DNA of 24,884 nt, from positions 1-24,884 of the IMG/VR virus record IMGVR_UViG_3300048872_000039; one strand, written 5' to 3'. Within the stretch, counting starts at the first letter, position 1. Each line of letters starts with the position of its first letter. Positions 327 through 18,507 of the stretch are shown piece after piece. The position numbers and the translations under genes are program-made. The notes beneath the pieces were generated by a model. The model saw only the letters and a list, made by a program, of their open reading frames with translations, was not told the DNA's origin and searched no databases. Source of the stretch: a virus.

Positions 327-1568
327 ATGCAAGAACTAATTGACAAATTAAACGAACTGGTGGAATCTGGGACAAAAAAGAAAGACCTTGAGGAGGCCAT
401 AGGGTTGCCGGAAAATAGTCTTTCAACTGTGTTAAAGGGGAGTAAGGAAATGCCTGCAAGTTGGATACCTAAAGTCCAAAAGTTTCTGGAAAAACCTATT
501 GCCGAACCAGAAGTTGAAAAATCGAAATCAGTGGTGCAGATAAATGGGGCTTTAAGCCTTGCGCCAACACCTGAACAAGTGGAAAATATGCAGGCGGCAA
601 TTGATAAGATAAATAAAGATTTTGGCGAAGGTTCAGTGATGAGATTGGGTGACAAACCCATGCGGAAATTGGACACAATATCTACTGGTTCTTTCGGGCT
701 TGATCTTATTTTGCAAATCGGCGGTTTGCCACGCGGAAGGATAGTGGAATTTTATGGCCCCGAATCTTCTGGCAAAACTACCATTGCTCTTTATACGGTT
801 GCTGAAGCTCAAAAAAGAAATGGAAGGTGCGCTTTTATTGACGTCGAACACGCTTTCGATGATGCTTACGCAAAGCTGATCGGGGTAAATGTGGAAGATT
901 TATTATTATCGCAACCCGATTATGGCGAGCAGGCGCTGGAAGAACTCGATAGGCTAATATTATCGAATGGTTATTCCGTTATAGTTGTAGACAGTGTGGC
1001 CGCGCTTGTGCCAAAGGCAGAACTTGAGGGAGAAATGGGTGACGCAAAGATGGCCCTGCAAGCAAGAATGATGTCGCAAGCTATGAGAAAAATTGTCGGT
1101 ACGGTTTCCAAAACTAATACTCTTGTTATCTTTATCAACCAACTTCGGGCAACAATCAATCAGGGTTACGGAACATATAATGGCCCAACAGAAATTACCA
1201 CAGGTGGTAACGCTTTGAAGTTTTATGCTTCGGTAAGGCTTGATGTTCGGAAAGCAGCGCAAATAAAAGATGGCGACGAGGTTGTTGGAAATAAAGTCAG
1301 GATTAAAATAGCAAAGAGCAAAGTTTGCGCCCCTTTCAAAACTACAGAACTTGACATCATGTACGGGCATGGGATAAACAAAGAAGGTGAAGTGGTTGAC
1401 AAAGCTGTTGAATTAGGGATAATCGTAAAAAATGGGAGTTGGTATTCGTATGAAGGAGATAAAATAGGGCAAGGTCGAGATTCGGCTTGCCTGTTATTCA
1501 AAGATAATCCAGAAATGTGTGAGAGGGTTTCCCAACAAGTAAAAGACAAAGTAAACGGCAAACCATAG
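327..1568 (+). CDS. recA: RecA-family recombinase with an N-terminal helix-turn-helix extension
   Basis: A 413-aa protein whose residues ~85-413 match the RecA core. It has the [11 protein letters not shown] start of the core, Walker A GPESSGKT (144-151), the catalytic-Glu segment [11 protein letters not shown] (168-178), the Walker B region [10 protein letters not shown] (218-227) and the [16 protein letters not shown] segment (291-306). It would bind ATP and ssDNA and promote strand exchange and repair of phage DNA. The acidic C-terminal tail of E. coli RecA is missing. Residues 1-~57 are extra and look like a Cro/lambda-repressor-type HTH ([21 protein letters not shown], approximately 19-38), joined by a Pro/Glu-rich linker. 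An internal Met at 89 could give a core-only form. It is one of the few rightward genes, behind a repeat-rich upstream region. RecA identity is firm; the HTH reading is by pattern. Confidence 0.93.
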
Positions 1569-5931: not shown

Positions 5932-5969
5932 TTATACTTATTGACCCCAACTATGGGAGTTTTACGATT
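5931..5969 (-). repeat. 39-bp repeat, copy 2
   Basis: 37 of 39 bases match copy 1, 368 bp away. The stop codon of the radical SAM gene (5962-5964) lies inside it. Adjacent sequence towards lower coordinates also resembles that beside copy 1 (an 11-nt block GTTGTTTTAAT is shared). Confidence 0.9.
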
Positions 5970-6861
5970 GTTTATATTTATATTCATTCCAACTACATGA
6001 TTTAAAGACCGCTCTATTATTTACCCATCTTGAAAATGATTTTTGATACGGATCACTTTTGTTAAATGGCATTACGAACGGCATACACCTCTTTTCCCGC
6101 AATGTCATTACTCTCTCATAGTCCTGATCAGGCGTAGTATCAAATCCAATCAACACAAAAAATTGCATGTGATTACAAGGAATACCGGCGTTATTGCAAA
6201 TTTCAATTCCCTTATCTATCAGCTTGCCATCGTTGTAACGATCCCACGCAAACGTTAAATACTTCTGATTAAACCGGCTGTTAGTATAGTTGCATTGTTT
6301 GAGCAACGCAGCCTGATCAGGCGTAATAATGCGAATGTTTAAGCCCTGAATAAAACAAACCTTCAGCTTCAGTTCTATTATTCGCAGTAAATTTTCTTTC
6401 CAATCCGACCCTCCAAAAAAGTCATTATCTAATAGCATAAGCCTATTCCCCCCTATGGGATTAGTCAGCAAGCCATCAATAGTGCTATTTACTTTCGGTC
6501 TGCCTTCTTTCTTTGGAACGCAACAAAACTTACACGCAAATCTGCAACCCTTCATGGAAAAACCTATATGATAATTACAATTAGGATACAATGAATAAGA
6601 AGGACGTGCAGCCTCTATTTCTTCAGGCAACCTATTTGTGAAGTCAATACCAGTACCTCCAACAATGGCATTAGGTGGCAATATGGGCATATCCGAAAAT
6701 CCGAATATCTTAGAAACGTACACCTTGTCATATTGATCTGAAAACAGCGGGCCTTCATACCATTTAACTACGTCTCCCCTTTGCTCATGGAAAGACGCCA
6801 CTTGCATAAGTGCCAAATTTGGATATGATCCATCAACCTGTATAATTCCTATTCTTTGCAT
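5962..6861 (-). CDS. Radical SAM enzyme
   Basis: 299 aa from ATG 6861 (a TTG just upstream would add one residue). The [4Fe-4S] motif CxxxCxxC is complete in KGCRFACKFC (Cys106, 110, 113). A Gly-rich MLLDNDFFGG segment and the later IQGLNIRII and FFVLIGFDTT strands match a radical SAM barrel. The N-terminal ~100 residues (GSYPNLALMQVASFHEQRGD) resemble the shortened B12-binding-like region of the MiaB/Elp3-like branch, without an obvious cobalamin His motif. The substrate is unknown; a modification of tRNA, DNA base or peptide are options. It stands alone between copy 2 and the inverted copy 3 of the 39-bp element, which could mean that it came in as a cassette. Confidence 0.88.
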   Translation of the reverse strand: MQRIGIIQVDGSYPNLALMQVASFHEQRGDVVKWYEGPLFSDQYDKVYVSKIFGFSDMPILPPNAIVGGTGIDFTNRLPEEIEAARPSYSLYPNCNYHIGFSMKGCRFACKFCCVPKKEGRPKVNSTIDGLLTNPIGGNRLMLLDNDFFGGSDWKENLLRIIELKLKVCFIQGLNIRIITPDQAALLKQCNYTNSRFNQKYLTFAWDRYNDGKLIDKGIEICNNAGIPCNHMQFFVLIGFDTTPDQDYERVMTLREKRCMPFVMPFNKSDPYQKSFSRWVNNRAVFKSCSWNEYKYKQS

Positions 6862-6862
6862 C

Positions 6863-6901
6863 AATTCGTAGTTTTACTCATTTAGGGTCAATAGGTATAT
6901 A
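6863..6901 (+). repeat. 39-bp repeat, diverged inverted copy 3
   Basis: In inverted orientation to copies 1 and 2, 26 of 39 bases match without gaps, and 18 of the first 22 (core TATTGACCC). It ends two bases before the radical SAM ATG, so the gene is flanked by inverted copies. Confidence 0.55.
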
Positions 6902-7257: not shown

Positions 7258-7929
7258 TTATGATTCAGAAAATGGGATTGTTATTTCTTCTCCAATTTTA
7301 ACCAATGCAACATCTCCATGTCGTATCGCTATTGGTTTATTTTTAAACGTAGATGCTTTTGCCTCAAAACAAGTTTTAGCTTTTTGATTAGGTGGATAAA
7401 GATGATACATGCGTCCAGTTGAGGGACAGACGACTTGAAGCAACAATGAGCTTTCTCCAATTTCTTTGCAAGAATAAAGTTTCATTTCATTGCCTTGATG
7501 ATCTATTTGTTCGTTAATAATTTTTGCATCCAATAATTTAATGTATCTATCCAGACCAATTTTTTCACGCAATGCCCTAAGGCTTTCCAAATTAGTGATT
7601 CGTTGCAAAAATTCTTTATCAACTTTATCATATAGATGTTCTGGCAAATTACTACATAAGCTATTTTCCAATTCACCAGAAACCTCAAACCATTGGCCCC
7701 AAAGTTTAACACTGTATATGCCGTCGCCGTTGCCGTTGCCGTAGCCGTAGCCGTAGCCGTTGCCGTTGCCGTTGCCGTAGCCGTTGCCGTAGCCGTAGCC
7801 GTTGCCGTAGCCGTTGCCGTTGCCGTTGCCGTCGCCGTAGCCGTAGCCGTCGCCGTCGCCGTCGCCGTCGCCGTTGCCGTTGCCGTAGCCGTCGCCGTTA
7901 TACGTCAGCAGATACACGTTTCCTTTCAT
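7258..7929 (-). CDS. Protein with a 60-residue (Asn/Asp/Tyr)-Gly array and a DUF6745-like C-terminus
   Basis: 223 aa. Residues 1-10 (MKGNVYLLTY) are followed by 30 dipeptides X-Gly at 11-70, where X is Asn (13), Tyr (10) or Asp (7) and never another residue. Residues 71-223 form a normal-complexity domain with LWGQWFEVSG, IGLDRYIKLLDAKII and VVCPSTGRMYHLYPP. This part reminds me of DUF6745, where 'NPSTGR.Y.L.VPP' is typical; moderate certainty. Similar Gly-Asp/Tyr/Asn/Ser strings occur in other phage and bacterial proteins, but their role is not known to me; an extended, flexible, possibly metal- or sugar-binding segment is a guess. The start overlaps the upstream DUF6948-like gene by 32 nt. 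The array is far more GC-rich than its surroundings. Confidence 0.85.
   Translation of the reverse strand: MKGNVYLLTYNGDGYGNGNGDGDGDGDGYGYGDGNGNGNGYGNGYGYGNGYGNGNGNGYGYGYGNGNGDGIYSVKLWGQWFEVSGELENSLCSNLPEHLYDKVDKEFLQRITNLESLRALREKIGLDRYIKLLDAKIINEQIDHQGNEMKLYSCKEIGESSLLLQVVCPSTGRMYHLYPPNQKAKTCFEAKASTFKNKPIAIRHGDVALVKIGEEITIPFSES
7720..7899 (-). repeat. 30-unit hexanucleotide array GGC-NAC with one variable base
   Basis: On the + strand the unit is GCCGTN, repeated exactly 30 times without interruption. N is T 13 times, A 10 times, C 7 times and G never. The other five positions are invariant in all 30 units. In the gene's frame N is the first base of the AAC/TAC/GAC codon. On the + strand the same array would read (Ala-Val)n, with N as the Val wobble base. 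Confidence 0.99.
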
Positions 7930-10317: not shown

Positions 10318-12537
10318 TTAAAAATTGAATATGGGGTTGTTTTCTTGTCTTAATTCCTGCATAAGCACCTGAATATTTTTCTTTGATAAATCGAAGTAGC
10401 TTTCCTTTAATTCAAACCCGATTGCCTTTCGACCCATCTTTACAGCCTGATACACTTCGCTGCCAATTCCCATAAAAGGAGTTAGTACGATATCTCCTTT
10501 GTTGCTGTACAGGTAAACAAGTCTTTCAATGGTTTCAAGTTGCAGGGGGGCTATATGCTTTTCGTCGCTTTCTTCCCGACCATTTCTATACCCCTGCAGC
10601 GTGTTCCCATAGTTAATATCCATCCAAACGGGGGACGCATACTTTTGCCAAAGATCAACGGGTAAATCTATATTACTAACTGGATTCTCTCTTTCGCCGT
10701 CCTTTCTGAATATTAAAACATAATCAGGAATACCAACCCGACTCATGGTACTATCTTTTTTAATCTGCTTATGAAGTAGTCCTAATGCTTTTGTTCGTTG
10801 CATTTCAACTACCGGGTCTTTCCATATCGTTACTCTTGAGTGATATACAAATCCAGCATCTTCAAAAGCCCGTAATATCATTCCCGAAAAATCTCTTAGC
10901 CCGATAAAACCTTCTTTACCCTTCTGAATAGGTAAATCCATGCAATGAACAGCCACATTTCTTCCCGGAAGCATTACCCGATACAGTTCTTTTATTAAAA
11001 AGGAAAAAGCTATCAAAAACTCTTTGTAATCTTTTGAGTTACCCATATCCTCTACATGACTGGAATAAGTATATAGATCGGCAAATGGTGGGCTGAAAAC
11101 AGAAAGTCCTATGCTTTCGTCAGGTATTTCGCGAATAAGTTTAACACAATCGCCGTGTCGCATATCAGCCCAATGGTTTATAAATTTTTCATTATCGAAT
11201 AACGTTTCTGTTAATTTGTTCCCTGAAAGGTTATCGTTGATGGCTTTACTCATTTCTGCTTGCATATATTCAAATTGTTTTTGTTTTTCATCTATTGCTT
11301 TTTTTACATTGGTCATCGTATCGGTTGTGATAAGGTAAATATTTACGTCCTTATCTTGACCAAACCTATAAGACCTTCTTATTGCCTGATAAAGCCCCTC
11401 AAAGCTAAAATCTAATGAAGCGAATATTTGGTTGTGGCAAGACTGGAAATTCATGCCGAATGACGCTATTTTTGTTTTAGTTATCAGCAACCGAAAATTC
11501 CCATTCGCAAACCCCAATAGCTTTTCTTCTTTCCACTTATCCGTATCATTTCCGCGAACTTCAATAGCTTCTGGAAGTAGTTCCTTAAGCAAGCCCCCTT
11601 CTTCATTGTGTTTTATCCAAATAATAAAACTTTCATCTTTCTTTTCATTAACCAACTTTACAACATCGTTCAGCCTTTCAAATTTCGTTAATCGCAATTC
11701 ACTATTAAAATTGGTTGCCGATACAGAAGTATCGTTAAATAATTTTCCGTTTCTTGAGGGGGTGATTATTTTTCTTTCTTCAATAACCAACGGAGGTAAA
11801 TTATACCCATCCATGTGAAAGCCTATATCTTCCGGCTTATTCAGCATGATTGACCATGTTCCAACAAACTGATAGAATAATTTAACAGCATGACCTTTTA
11901 AGCGCCACTTAGCCGTTTCGCCGCCATCATGGACAAAGTACATGGCAAGCATTTCGTTTCGGTTCATTACATCTAAAAACTCTGAGTGATTGCCCAATTC
12001 CATCGGATCGTTTGGTGAGGGGGTTGCGGTGCAGGCAAGTTTATACGGGGTATCTTTAAACGTTTCGATAATATTTTTCTTTGTCGCCCCTTCAAAGTTT
12101 TTCAAGATGCTTGATTCATCCAATACGATTCCAGAAAAGATAGAACAGTCGATGTTATCAAGTTGATCGTAGTTGGCTATCAATACCCCTTGTGTCAAAT
12201 TTTCAGTATCGCCATTATCAACCGCCTCAAAATAATCCTGACAGTATATTCCAAACTTTTTTCCTTCTTGAATAGTTTGCGCTTTTACTGCTAATGGAGC
12301 AAGGATAAGCACCCACCCGTTTACGTGTTCGGCTACTCGTTGCGACCAGTCCAATTGCATCAGGGTCTTGCCAAGCCCGCAATCCGCAAAAATTGCATAT
12401 TTACCCGCCAATAGCGCTCGGTCAACAATAAATTTCTGGAAAGGGAAAAGGTATTTGTTTAGTTTATCACACTTAAAGCCAGATCGTACATGAGCCTTTT
12501 GCTTCGTCAATAAAAAATCTTCGTATTGCATAATCAT
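10318..12537 (-). CDS. Helicase-DNA methyltransferase fusion
   Basis: 739 aa with two halves. Residues ~30-430 form an SF2 (SNF2/DEAD-like) helicase: motif I GLGKT (54-58), motif II DESS (140-143), motif III ATPSPND (171-177) and motif VI QAIRRSYRFGQ (384-394). Residues ~455-725 form an amino-methyltransferase of the N4-cytosine/N6-adenine type: catalytic SPPF (482-485), then LTPFMGIGSE (685-694) and AIGFELKESYF (705-715) as the SAM-binding region. The order (SPPF before the SAM motif) is the beta-type permutation. The start overlaps the upstream gene as ATGA. It may modify phage DNA during replication or remodel DNA ahead of methylation. No restriction nuclease domain or specificity subunit is seen. 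Confidence 0.88.
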   Translation of the reverse strand: MIMQYEDFLLTKQKAHVRSGFKCDKLNKYLFPFQKFIVDRALLAGKYAIFADCGLGKTLMQLDWSQRVAEHVNGWVLILAPLAVKAQTIQEGKKFGIYCQDYFEAVDNGDTENLTQGVLIANYDQLDNIDCSIFSGIVLDESSILKNFEGATKKNIIETFKDTPYKLACTATPSPNDPMELGNHSEFLDVMNRNEMLAMYFVHDGGETAKWRLKGHAVKLFYQFVGTWSIMLNKPEDIGFHMDGYNLPPLVIEERKIITPSRNGKLFNDTSVSATNFNSELRLTKFERLNDVVKLVNEKKDESFIIWIKHNEEGGLLKELLPEAIEVRGNDTDKWKEEKLLGFANGNFRLLITKTKIASFGMNFQSCHNQIFASLDFSFEGLYQAIRRSYRFGQDKDVNIYLITTDTMTNVKKAIDEKQKQFEYMQAEMSKAINDNLSGNKLTETLFDNEKFINHWADMRHGDCVKLIREIPDESIGLSVFSPPFADLYTYSSHVEDMGNSKDYKEFLIAFSFLIKELYRVMLPGRNVAVHCMDLPIQKGKEGFIGLRDFSGMILRAFEDAGFVYHSRVTIWKDPVVEMQRTKALGLLHKQIKKDSTMSRVGIPDYVLIFRKDGERENPVSNIDLPVDLWQKYASPVWMDINYGNTLQGYRNGREESDEKHIAPLQLETIERLVYLYSNKGDIVLTPFMGIGSEVYQAVKMGRKAIGFELKESYFDLSKKNIQVLMQELRQENNPIFNF

Positions 12538-17937: not shown

Positions 17938-18507
17938 CTAATGAGATGCCTCAAAGTTTTTGAATCGTTCAATCATGGCATCTCTGAATCTTTTTATTTG
18001 AGTGCATACACCGCCCAATTTCAAATGTAACATTTCAGCTATTTCATTATGGGAATAGCCCATTAGGTAAAGTTTAGCTATTTTTTTACGAGCTGTCGGG
18101 AATGACTCAACTTCTCTTAATATAATTTCCATCAGATCAGCTTTCATTAAAGCATCTTCAATATCTATATCAGAAGTTAAAAAATATCCTACTGGAATAA
18201 GACCTTCTATTACATCGGGGTCGGATTTATCTATATTGGGAGTCCACCGAGAATTTTCTGCAAACGAAATAATGTTTTTTACTTTTGTGTGTTTATTGGT
18301 ATTTACGCAAGCGTTCCTGCAAGATAAATACAGCCATGATCTTATTGATAACTCTTCCCTAAAATTATCTATCCGACAAAACCCCTTAATCATTACATCC
18401 GCAACGACATCTTCCGCCAAATATTTCTCTCTAAGTATTTGACCACAAAAATAAATAAGAGGCTTATTGTATTTTTTGAATATTACTATGTATTCCGATT
18501 CCGTCAT
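17938..18507 (-). CDS. ECF-type sigma factor
   Basis: 189 aa with the two conserved regions of the ECF (RpoE/FecI-like) class. Region 2: YLAEDVVADVMIKGFCRIDN (29-48) and SIRSWLYLSCRNACVN (54-69). Region 4 HTH: KKIAKLYLMGYSHNEIAEML (141-160), followed by VCTQIKRFRDAM (167-178). The linker (80-115) is longer than in most. It would redirect host RNA polymerase to phage promoters, probably middle or late genes outside this window. No anti-sigma gene is adjacent. The next gene upstream is eight nt away; a strong terminator follows. Class is well supported; target promoters are unknown. Confidence 0.88.
   Translation of the reverse strand: MTESEYIVIFKKYNKPLIYFCGQILREKYLAEDVVADVMIKGFCRIDNFREELSIRSWLYLSCRNACVNTNKHTKVKNIISFAENSRWTPNIDKSDPDVIEGLIPVGYFLTSDIDIEDALMKADLMEIILREVESFPTARKKIAKLYLMGYSHNEIAEMLHLKLGGVCTQIKRFRDAMIERFKNFEASH

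Follow-up and report, generated by a model that had tools for sequence, protein, structure and literature searches.

A hypervariable (X-Gly)n coding array coupled to DUF6948 in phages, probably shaped by unit turnover and protein-level selection

Introduction

What keeps one base of a tandem repeat diverse when every other base in it is uniform? The question is raised by a hexamer array in an IMG/VR virus record, 24,884 bases long and analysed here over its whole length (the window). On the plus strand, the unit GCCGTN is repeated 30 times without interruption at 7720-7899. N is T in 13 units, A in 10 and C in 7, and the remaining letters G, C, C, G and T are each found in 30/30. We conclude that this is probably a coding (X-Gly)n array in a coupled DUF6948 module, shaped by turnover of its units and by selection on the protein. 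The conserved upstream partner gene, DUF6948, is considered the main finding.

The array and its gene

The initial annotation had described the 30 units, the three values of N and the five fixed positions, and both a recount and Tandem Repeats Finder (7719-7899, period 6, 30.2 copies) agreed with it. The array lies in frame in a minus-strand ORF (Table 1), so that every change of N exchanges Asn, Tyr and Asp. The silent positions are fixed, as had also been stated: all 60 silent choices are C (60/60), an outcome with a probability of ~10^-35 under the window's own codon usage. The window has a GC content of 37.5% and favours codons other than those of the array. A single array is nevertheless weak evidence of selection, since two substitutions together with copying are enough to produce three unit types; the 30 units need not represent 30 independent events, and the pattern is strong only over many arrays (139/139, see below). 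The order of the letters shows no excess of internal repeats (p 0.96 in the internal-repeat test), and block duplication of long segments is therefore not the main visible source of the window array.

Table 1. Features of the array locus and other genes in the window
Feature	Position	Strand	Description
Hexamer array	7720..7899	-	30 x (NAC GGC) in gene sense, i.e. (Asn/Tyr/Asp-Gly)30; first base of the X codon the sole variable
Array gene, 223 aa	7258..7929	-	N-terminus MKGNVYLLTY, (X-Gly)30, then C-terminal domain
C-terminal domain of array protein, ~150 aa	7258..7716	-	65-72% identical in orthologs
DUF6948 gene, ~104 aa	7898..8212	-	PF22253, E 1.7e-18; first of coupled pair; predicted Sm/LSm-like fold
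Overlap of both genes, 32 bp	7898..7929	-	ATG of array gene (7929) inside DUF6948
RecA, phage-encoded	327-1568	+	N-terminal extension of ~85 residues
Radical SAM protein	5962-6864	-	Phage family phrog_9298, E 7e-69
SNF2/helicase-C and methylase ORF	10318-12537	-	SNF2/helicase-C domains and N6/N4 DNA methylase domain in one ORF
Sigma-70-like factor	17938-18507	-	

Searches with the whole array protein found no close relative in IMG/VR or among GenBank phages, and orthologs sharing its C-terminal domain (L416, L417, L418 and L510) surfaced only through the DUF6948 search; the identity range in Table 1 refers to L416, L417 and L418 against the window. The N-terminus of the window protein is also present in L117/L415. 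No Pfam or NCBIfam family matched the C-terminal domain at usable scores. A DUF6745-like identity was considered for it and dropped, as neither database gave support, and its AlphaFold model (pLDDT 56, from four sequences) is too weak for interpretation.

Among the orthologs, synonymous sites outside the array are almost saturated (pS 0.65-0.80). The array codons are all GGC/NAC in four of the five genes (window, L417, L418 and L510), and in the remaining ortholog (L416/L512) Gly is GGA in 58/58 units. Uniform arrays beside nearly saturated synonymous sites, with GGC in some and GGA in another, suggest that uniformity within the array is continually renewed and that the letter can switch wholesale.

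Across the array loci compared, arrays run in frame into several unrelated domains, and to judge by their sequences they look like a linker common to these. A domain with the invariant core WHxxLTGSCxxGRxxF, which has no Pfam family, recurs C-terminal to many phage arrays (L052, L099, L151, L251, L195, L204, L129, L026 and L164). A second post-array domain, FWRSDxxGxPANGG ... LHATxxPPKWKG, is found in L070, L087, L101, L103 and L106, and an N-terminal module, GACIDGV ... W..AAN, precedes the array in L006, L040, L104 and L110.

The DUF6948 partner gene

The gene upstream of the window array scores 67 bits against PF22253, for which the Pfam curated cut-off is 27, placing it in the DUF6948 family. 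Two bases of its stop codon, TAA (7900-7898), also belong to AACGGC, the first unit of the array, and the overlap DNA is nearly identical between the window and L117. The arrangement is general: among 161 arrays whose upstream sequence reaches 400 bp or more, 141 have a DUF6948-like gene there. The reverse test started from a DUF6948 protein search blind to arrays, which gave 80 loci, 77 of them with enough downstream sequence; in 75 of these 77 an array lies within 500 bp behind DUF6948 (median 48 bp), and one more lies at 628 bp. The pair also turned up in GenBank, in phages of Pectobacterium, Chlorobiaceae, Iodobacter and Vibrio.

Among 231 gene pairs, 196 have an ATG in the X-Gly frame that is open into the array; for the other two frames the counts are 66 and 8. 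The start of the array gene usually overlaps the DUF6948 stop, most commonly by 1, 4, 13, 16, 17 or 19 nt. These overlaps place the two genes in either of two relative frames, the arrangement expected of translational coupling. In a single case (L010) the two genes form a natural in-frame fusion. Gene order and overlap give good support to a conserved phage module of two translationally coupled genes, in which the array gene comes second.

Small proteins upstream of the arrays in L017, L009 and L039 were linked to DUF6948 by BLAST and missed by the Pfam model, indicating a family broader than PF22253. Among the papers searched, there was none that names DUF6948, nothing relevant on peptide or DNA repeats of this kind, and no account of the module of DUF6948 and array.

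Silent and variable positions across phage arrays

An exact scan of IMG/VR for eight GCCGTH units returned at least 120 stretches, and wider scans that accepted Gly-X arrays whatever their codons found further loci beyond the GCCGTH matches. That Gly-X strings occur in other phages had been anticipated; the class proved widespread, and its statistics were computed on 139 deduplicated mixed arrays of at least 15 units each. Mean pairwise diversity was 0.036 at the third position of the Gly codon (G3) and 0.553, 0.170 and 0.056 at the three positions of the X codon (X1, X2 and X3, respectively). G3 was invariant in 81% of the arrays, and X1 diversity surpassed that of either silent site in 139/139. 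The initial annotation had called the pattern the reverse of normal purifying selection, a description that therefore extends to the whole class.

Seven codon classes were counted among the 139 arrays: GGC/NNC in 107, GGA/NNT in 11, GGC/NNT in 8, GGT/NNT in 6, GGA/NNC in 4 and GGG in 3. GGA and GGG arrays are as uniform as GGC arrays. The check proposed in the initial annotation, whether relatives share the fixed and variable positions, finds X1 more diverse than the silent sites in every array, and the fixed silent letters differing from array to array. As these letters are array-specific, differing even between orthologs, they form no conserved nucleic-acid motif.

X2 also varies in many arrays, through Ser. 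The X codons are mainly TAY, GAY, AAY and TCY. Ala codons (GCx) were observed 4 times against 129 expected if the two bases were independent, Ser codons (TCx) 421 times against 285 expected, and His codons (CAx), one transition away from Tyr, only 7 times in ~4,180. Fifty-six arrays combine Tyr, Asp and Asn and 45 combine Tyr, Asp and Ser, and arrays combining both sets are rare (8). Judged from these counts, the X codons appear to pass an amino-acid filter for Tyr, Asp, Asn and Ser.

The silent letters themselves are biased. In the DUF6948 sample gathered blind to arrays, Gly is GGC in 53/64 arrays and GGY in 61/64, and GGC is used in 18/21 arrays from genomes below 40% GC. Ser is TCY in 97% of array cases, compared with 31% in neighbouring ORFs. 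The silent choice is therefore not neutral. It could reflect translational codon optimality, as Gly codons number in the dozens in such a gene, or one-step descent from TAY; avoidance of Shine-Dalgarno-like GGA runs is another possible reason, and a role of the transcript as RNA would be the alternative to these.

Turnover of the array

Arrays change between close relatives. The Pectobacterium phages Ymer/Abuela and Amona have 0 mismatches over 961 bp covering DUF6948 and its upstream region, yet Ymer/Abuela carry ~30 units and Amona 27, with a different letter order and both array ends shared. The suggestion that length or order might differ among close relatives is borne out by these phages, which are relatives rather than the window phage itself; so is the suggestion that units keep recombining, as the arrays of same-flank phages differ by rearranged units. 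Other phages of the Pectobacterium group range from 22 to 40 units and show few silent changes, and annotated array genes span 162 to 270 bp. Long internal repeats are in excess (p<0.05) in 19% of arrays, and segmental duplications are seen in some.

L040 and L063 have identical flanks and 21 and 48 units, a comparison that gives weak support only, because assembly collapse is possible. In L237 and L238, whose flanks are 96% identical, a (Gly-Asn)n array differs by one unit. IMG/VR contigs often end inside arrays (L003, L004, L007, L035 and L117), and L510 begins with an apparently inverted array piece (positions 1-60). Contig breaks at arrays indicate that short-read assembly struggles with them, so that array lengths from metagenomes are unreliable, and some of the differences in length may be artefacts of such assembly.

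Bacterial control and simulation

Bacterial genomes provide a natural control. The 118 (GX)n stretches found there with a similar pattern are mostly Gly-Tyr, Gly-Asp or Gly-Asn homopolymers, and mixed arrays with Tyr account for 3/118 bacterial stretches against 149/170 viral loci, the latter partly fetched with the GCCGTH pattern. In the bacterial genomes L295-L412, many stretches are pure (Gly-Tyr)n runs of ~8-15 units, and others are pure (Gly-Asp)n or (Gly-Asn)n. No DUF6948 was detected by tblastn in the bacterial array loci fetched; a PF22253 search of 18 bacterial genomes with GX arrays gave no match, but its controls were likewise without a match, so the tblastn result carries more weight.

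We simulated arrays in which turnover outpaced mutation 100-fold and breakpoints could fall at any base of a unit; residues were filtered, and a mixed composition was required. Diversity in the simulated arrays was 0.070 at G3, 0.516 at X1, 0.142 at X2 and 0.041 at X3, with G3 invariant in 76% of samples. Without selection on composition, X1 collapses too. A version with breakpoints between units only was rejected because its silent sites stay too diverse across X types, a defect that breakpoints within units mend. Fast unit turnover plus selection for a mixed X thus yields the diversity seen at each variable position; as we chose the composition thresholds ourselves, this is sufficiency and not proof. 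The earlier argument that slippage cannot confine variation to one position stands for slippage without selection, as the bacterial homopolymers, which lack the partner gene, illustrate.

Predicted fold of DUF6948

An AlphaFold2 model of DUF6948 built with 71 family sequences reached a pLDDT of 93. The best Foldseek matches were Sm/LSm proteins (probability 1.0, E 0.03); among the matches listed, all are Sm/LSm or spliceosomal Sm chains, with Z up to 8.6 and ~2 A over 60-68 residues. A profile search (profile A4) against PDB chains returned none at E<=10, and the likeness to Sm/LSm is accordingly a prediction at fold level. DUF6948 is thus predicted to have an Sm-type barrel, the match being moderate in both E and Z. 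Among known members of this fold, a tuning role in RNA binding or assembly is ascribed to the acidic C-terminus of Hfq and to the Arg-Gly tails of SmD1/SmD3.

Alternative explanations

Two other readings concern the origin of the variation. In a neutral microsatellite, a few founder units would slip and X would be unselected. Units do turn over, and the excess of long internal repeats in about a fifth of the arrays fits; however, an unselected X would homogenize like the silent sites, as it does in the simulation and in the bacterial homopolymers, and neither the strict residue filter nor the constant partner gene is expected, making this account very improbable. Mutation targeted to one position, for example by a diversity-generating retroelement or base-specific editing, had also been put forward, and the restriction of variation to one base in the window array agrees with it. 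We regard it as equally improbable. No reverse transcriptase (RVT_1) was found in the window record, possibly a fragment; X2 varies as well in many arrays; and transitions are usually the commonest base changes, yet those yielding His and Cys are rare here. Same-flank phages differ by rearranged units, and neither these nor the simulation requires targeting, so that with the amino-acid filter in the X codons the proposed process is not needed.

The other readings concern what the array does. The initial annotation allowed for something that binds the DNA or RNA. As the cause of the pattern, a bound motif is contradicted by silent letters that differ between arrays and between orthologs; a role at the RNA level keeps some plausibility, because the fold predicted for the partner is of an RNA-binding type. 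On that reading, the functional molecule would be the array RNA, with DUF6948, as an Sm-like protein, reading its GGY anchors and the letters that vary, and coding would be secondary or dual. Besides the predicted fold, the GGY anchor kept whatever the genome GC, Ser written almost solely as TCY, hypervariable arrays in near-identical phages and the precedent of VIPR, in which phage repeat RNAs carry GGY anchors (PMC13142463), speak for it. The variable codon is filtered by amino acid, however, the ATG in the X-Gly frame is coupled to the upstream stop, arrays join several domains in frame and GGA and GGG arrays are equally uniform. Moreover, an X limited to about four dinucleotides is a poor guide code, and neither a period-5 array nor a Vipr-like protein by sequence was found. 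We therefore hold it improbable. The same low likelihood attaches to its fuller form, a second repeat-RNA system with dual coding, in which an Sm-like ring would bind the GGY-NNY transcript unit by unit, the letters would be informative and the (X-Gly)n chain would be a second layer; if true, it would parallel VIPR with another protein fold and a six-base period. A more serious contender, although still unlikely, is that the (X-Gly)n chains act independently of DUF6948 and that gene order reflects co-expression. Gly with Tyr, Asp, Asn and Ser is the composition of sticker-and-spacer or silk-like chains, so structural or condensate roles are conceivable, and arrays are joined to different domains; against this stand the near one-to-one association in both directions and the one natural fusion.

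Proposed model

We favour the coding array within the DUF6948 module. That the array is protein-coding DNA, that it belongs to a module and that its units turn over appear well supported by the sequence data. The array would encode a low-complexity chain in which Gly alternates with Tyr, Asp or Asn, Ser replacing Asn in other phages. Its units would be duplicated, deleted and recombined far faster than bases mutate, and since breakpoints may fall anywhere in the unit, silent bases would become uniform within each array. Selection on the protein would remove other residues and retain a mix of aromatic and polar or acidic residues at X, as the bacterial natural control and the simulation suggest. 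Composition and length of the chain, rather than order, would be what is selected.

The gene association and one fusion suggest that the two proteins may act together. DUF6948 might form an Sm-like ring, with the (X-Gly)n chain as a flexible, exchangeable partner or tail that would tune RNA binding or assembly in the way ascribed to the tails of Hfq or SmD1/SmD3. This last part (the ring, its RNA binding and the tail function) is tentative and has a well under even chance of being right.

The proposal supplies a testable hypothesis for each gene of a module that is very common in phages, where DUF6948, a family without known function, is nearly always found coupled to a hypervariable Gly-X array. 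The arrays also offer a clean natural case in which turnover and amino-acid selection mark silent and coding positions in opposite ways.

Comparison with known systems

Pfam assigns no function to DUF6948 (PF22253), of which the upstream gene of the window is a member above the cut-off, and the Pfam model misses several related subfamilies whose genes likewise stand before arrays. The array shares with coding microsatellites and VNTR proteins the in-frame gain and loss of units and fast changes in length, but in every array here a single codon position is kept variable amid uniform ones. Sm, LSm and Hfq proteins with low-complexity tails resemble the module in that a predicted Sm-like fold stands beside, and is once fused to, a Gly-dipeptide chain. 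The chain of the module, known here from sequence and models, is by contrast Tyr/Asp/Asn/Ser-Gly, hypervariable and encoded by its own coupled gene.

VIPR is among the closest known parallels: a phage-encoded system of a RAMP protein, Vipr, and vrRNA tandem repeats, with 9-16 YNNGG repeats of period 5 in a noncoding, intergenic array (PMC13142463). Both systems pair a small phage protein gene with an adjoining GG-anchored array in which hypervariable letters stand amid constant bases. The window holds no YNNGG period-5 run, only the period-6 array, and the SUSP1 Vipr protein gave a best window match of E 0.26 and none at E<=1e-3 in the array loci, although RAMPs share little sequence. Unlike the noncoding VIPR array, the one described here has a period of 6, lies in frame and bears the signs of translation: its start overlaps DUF6948 and a domain continues downstream. 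The anchor may also be GGA or GGG, X is bounded by amino-acid identity and the partner is predicted to be Sm-like rather than a RAMP. The module is a counter-example to the view that a GGY repeat whose letters vary must be a guide RNA of the VIPR type.
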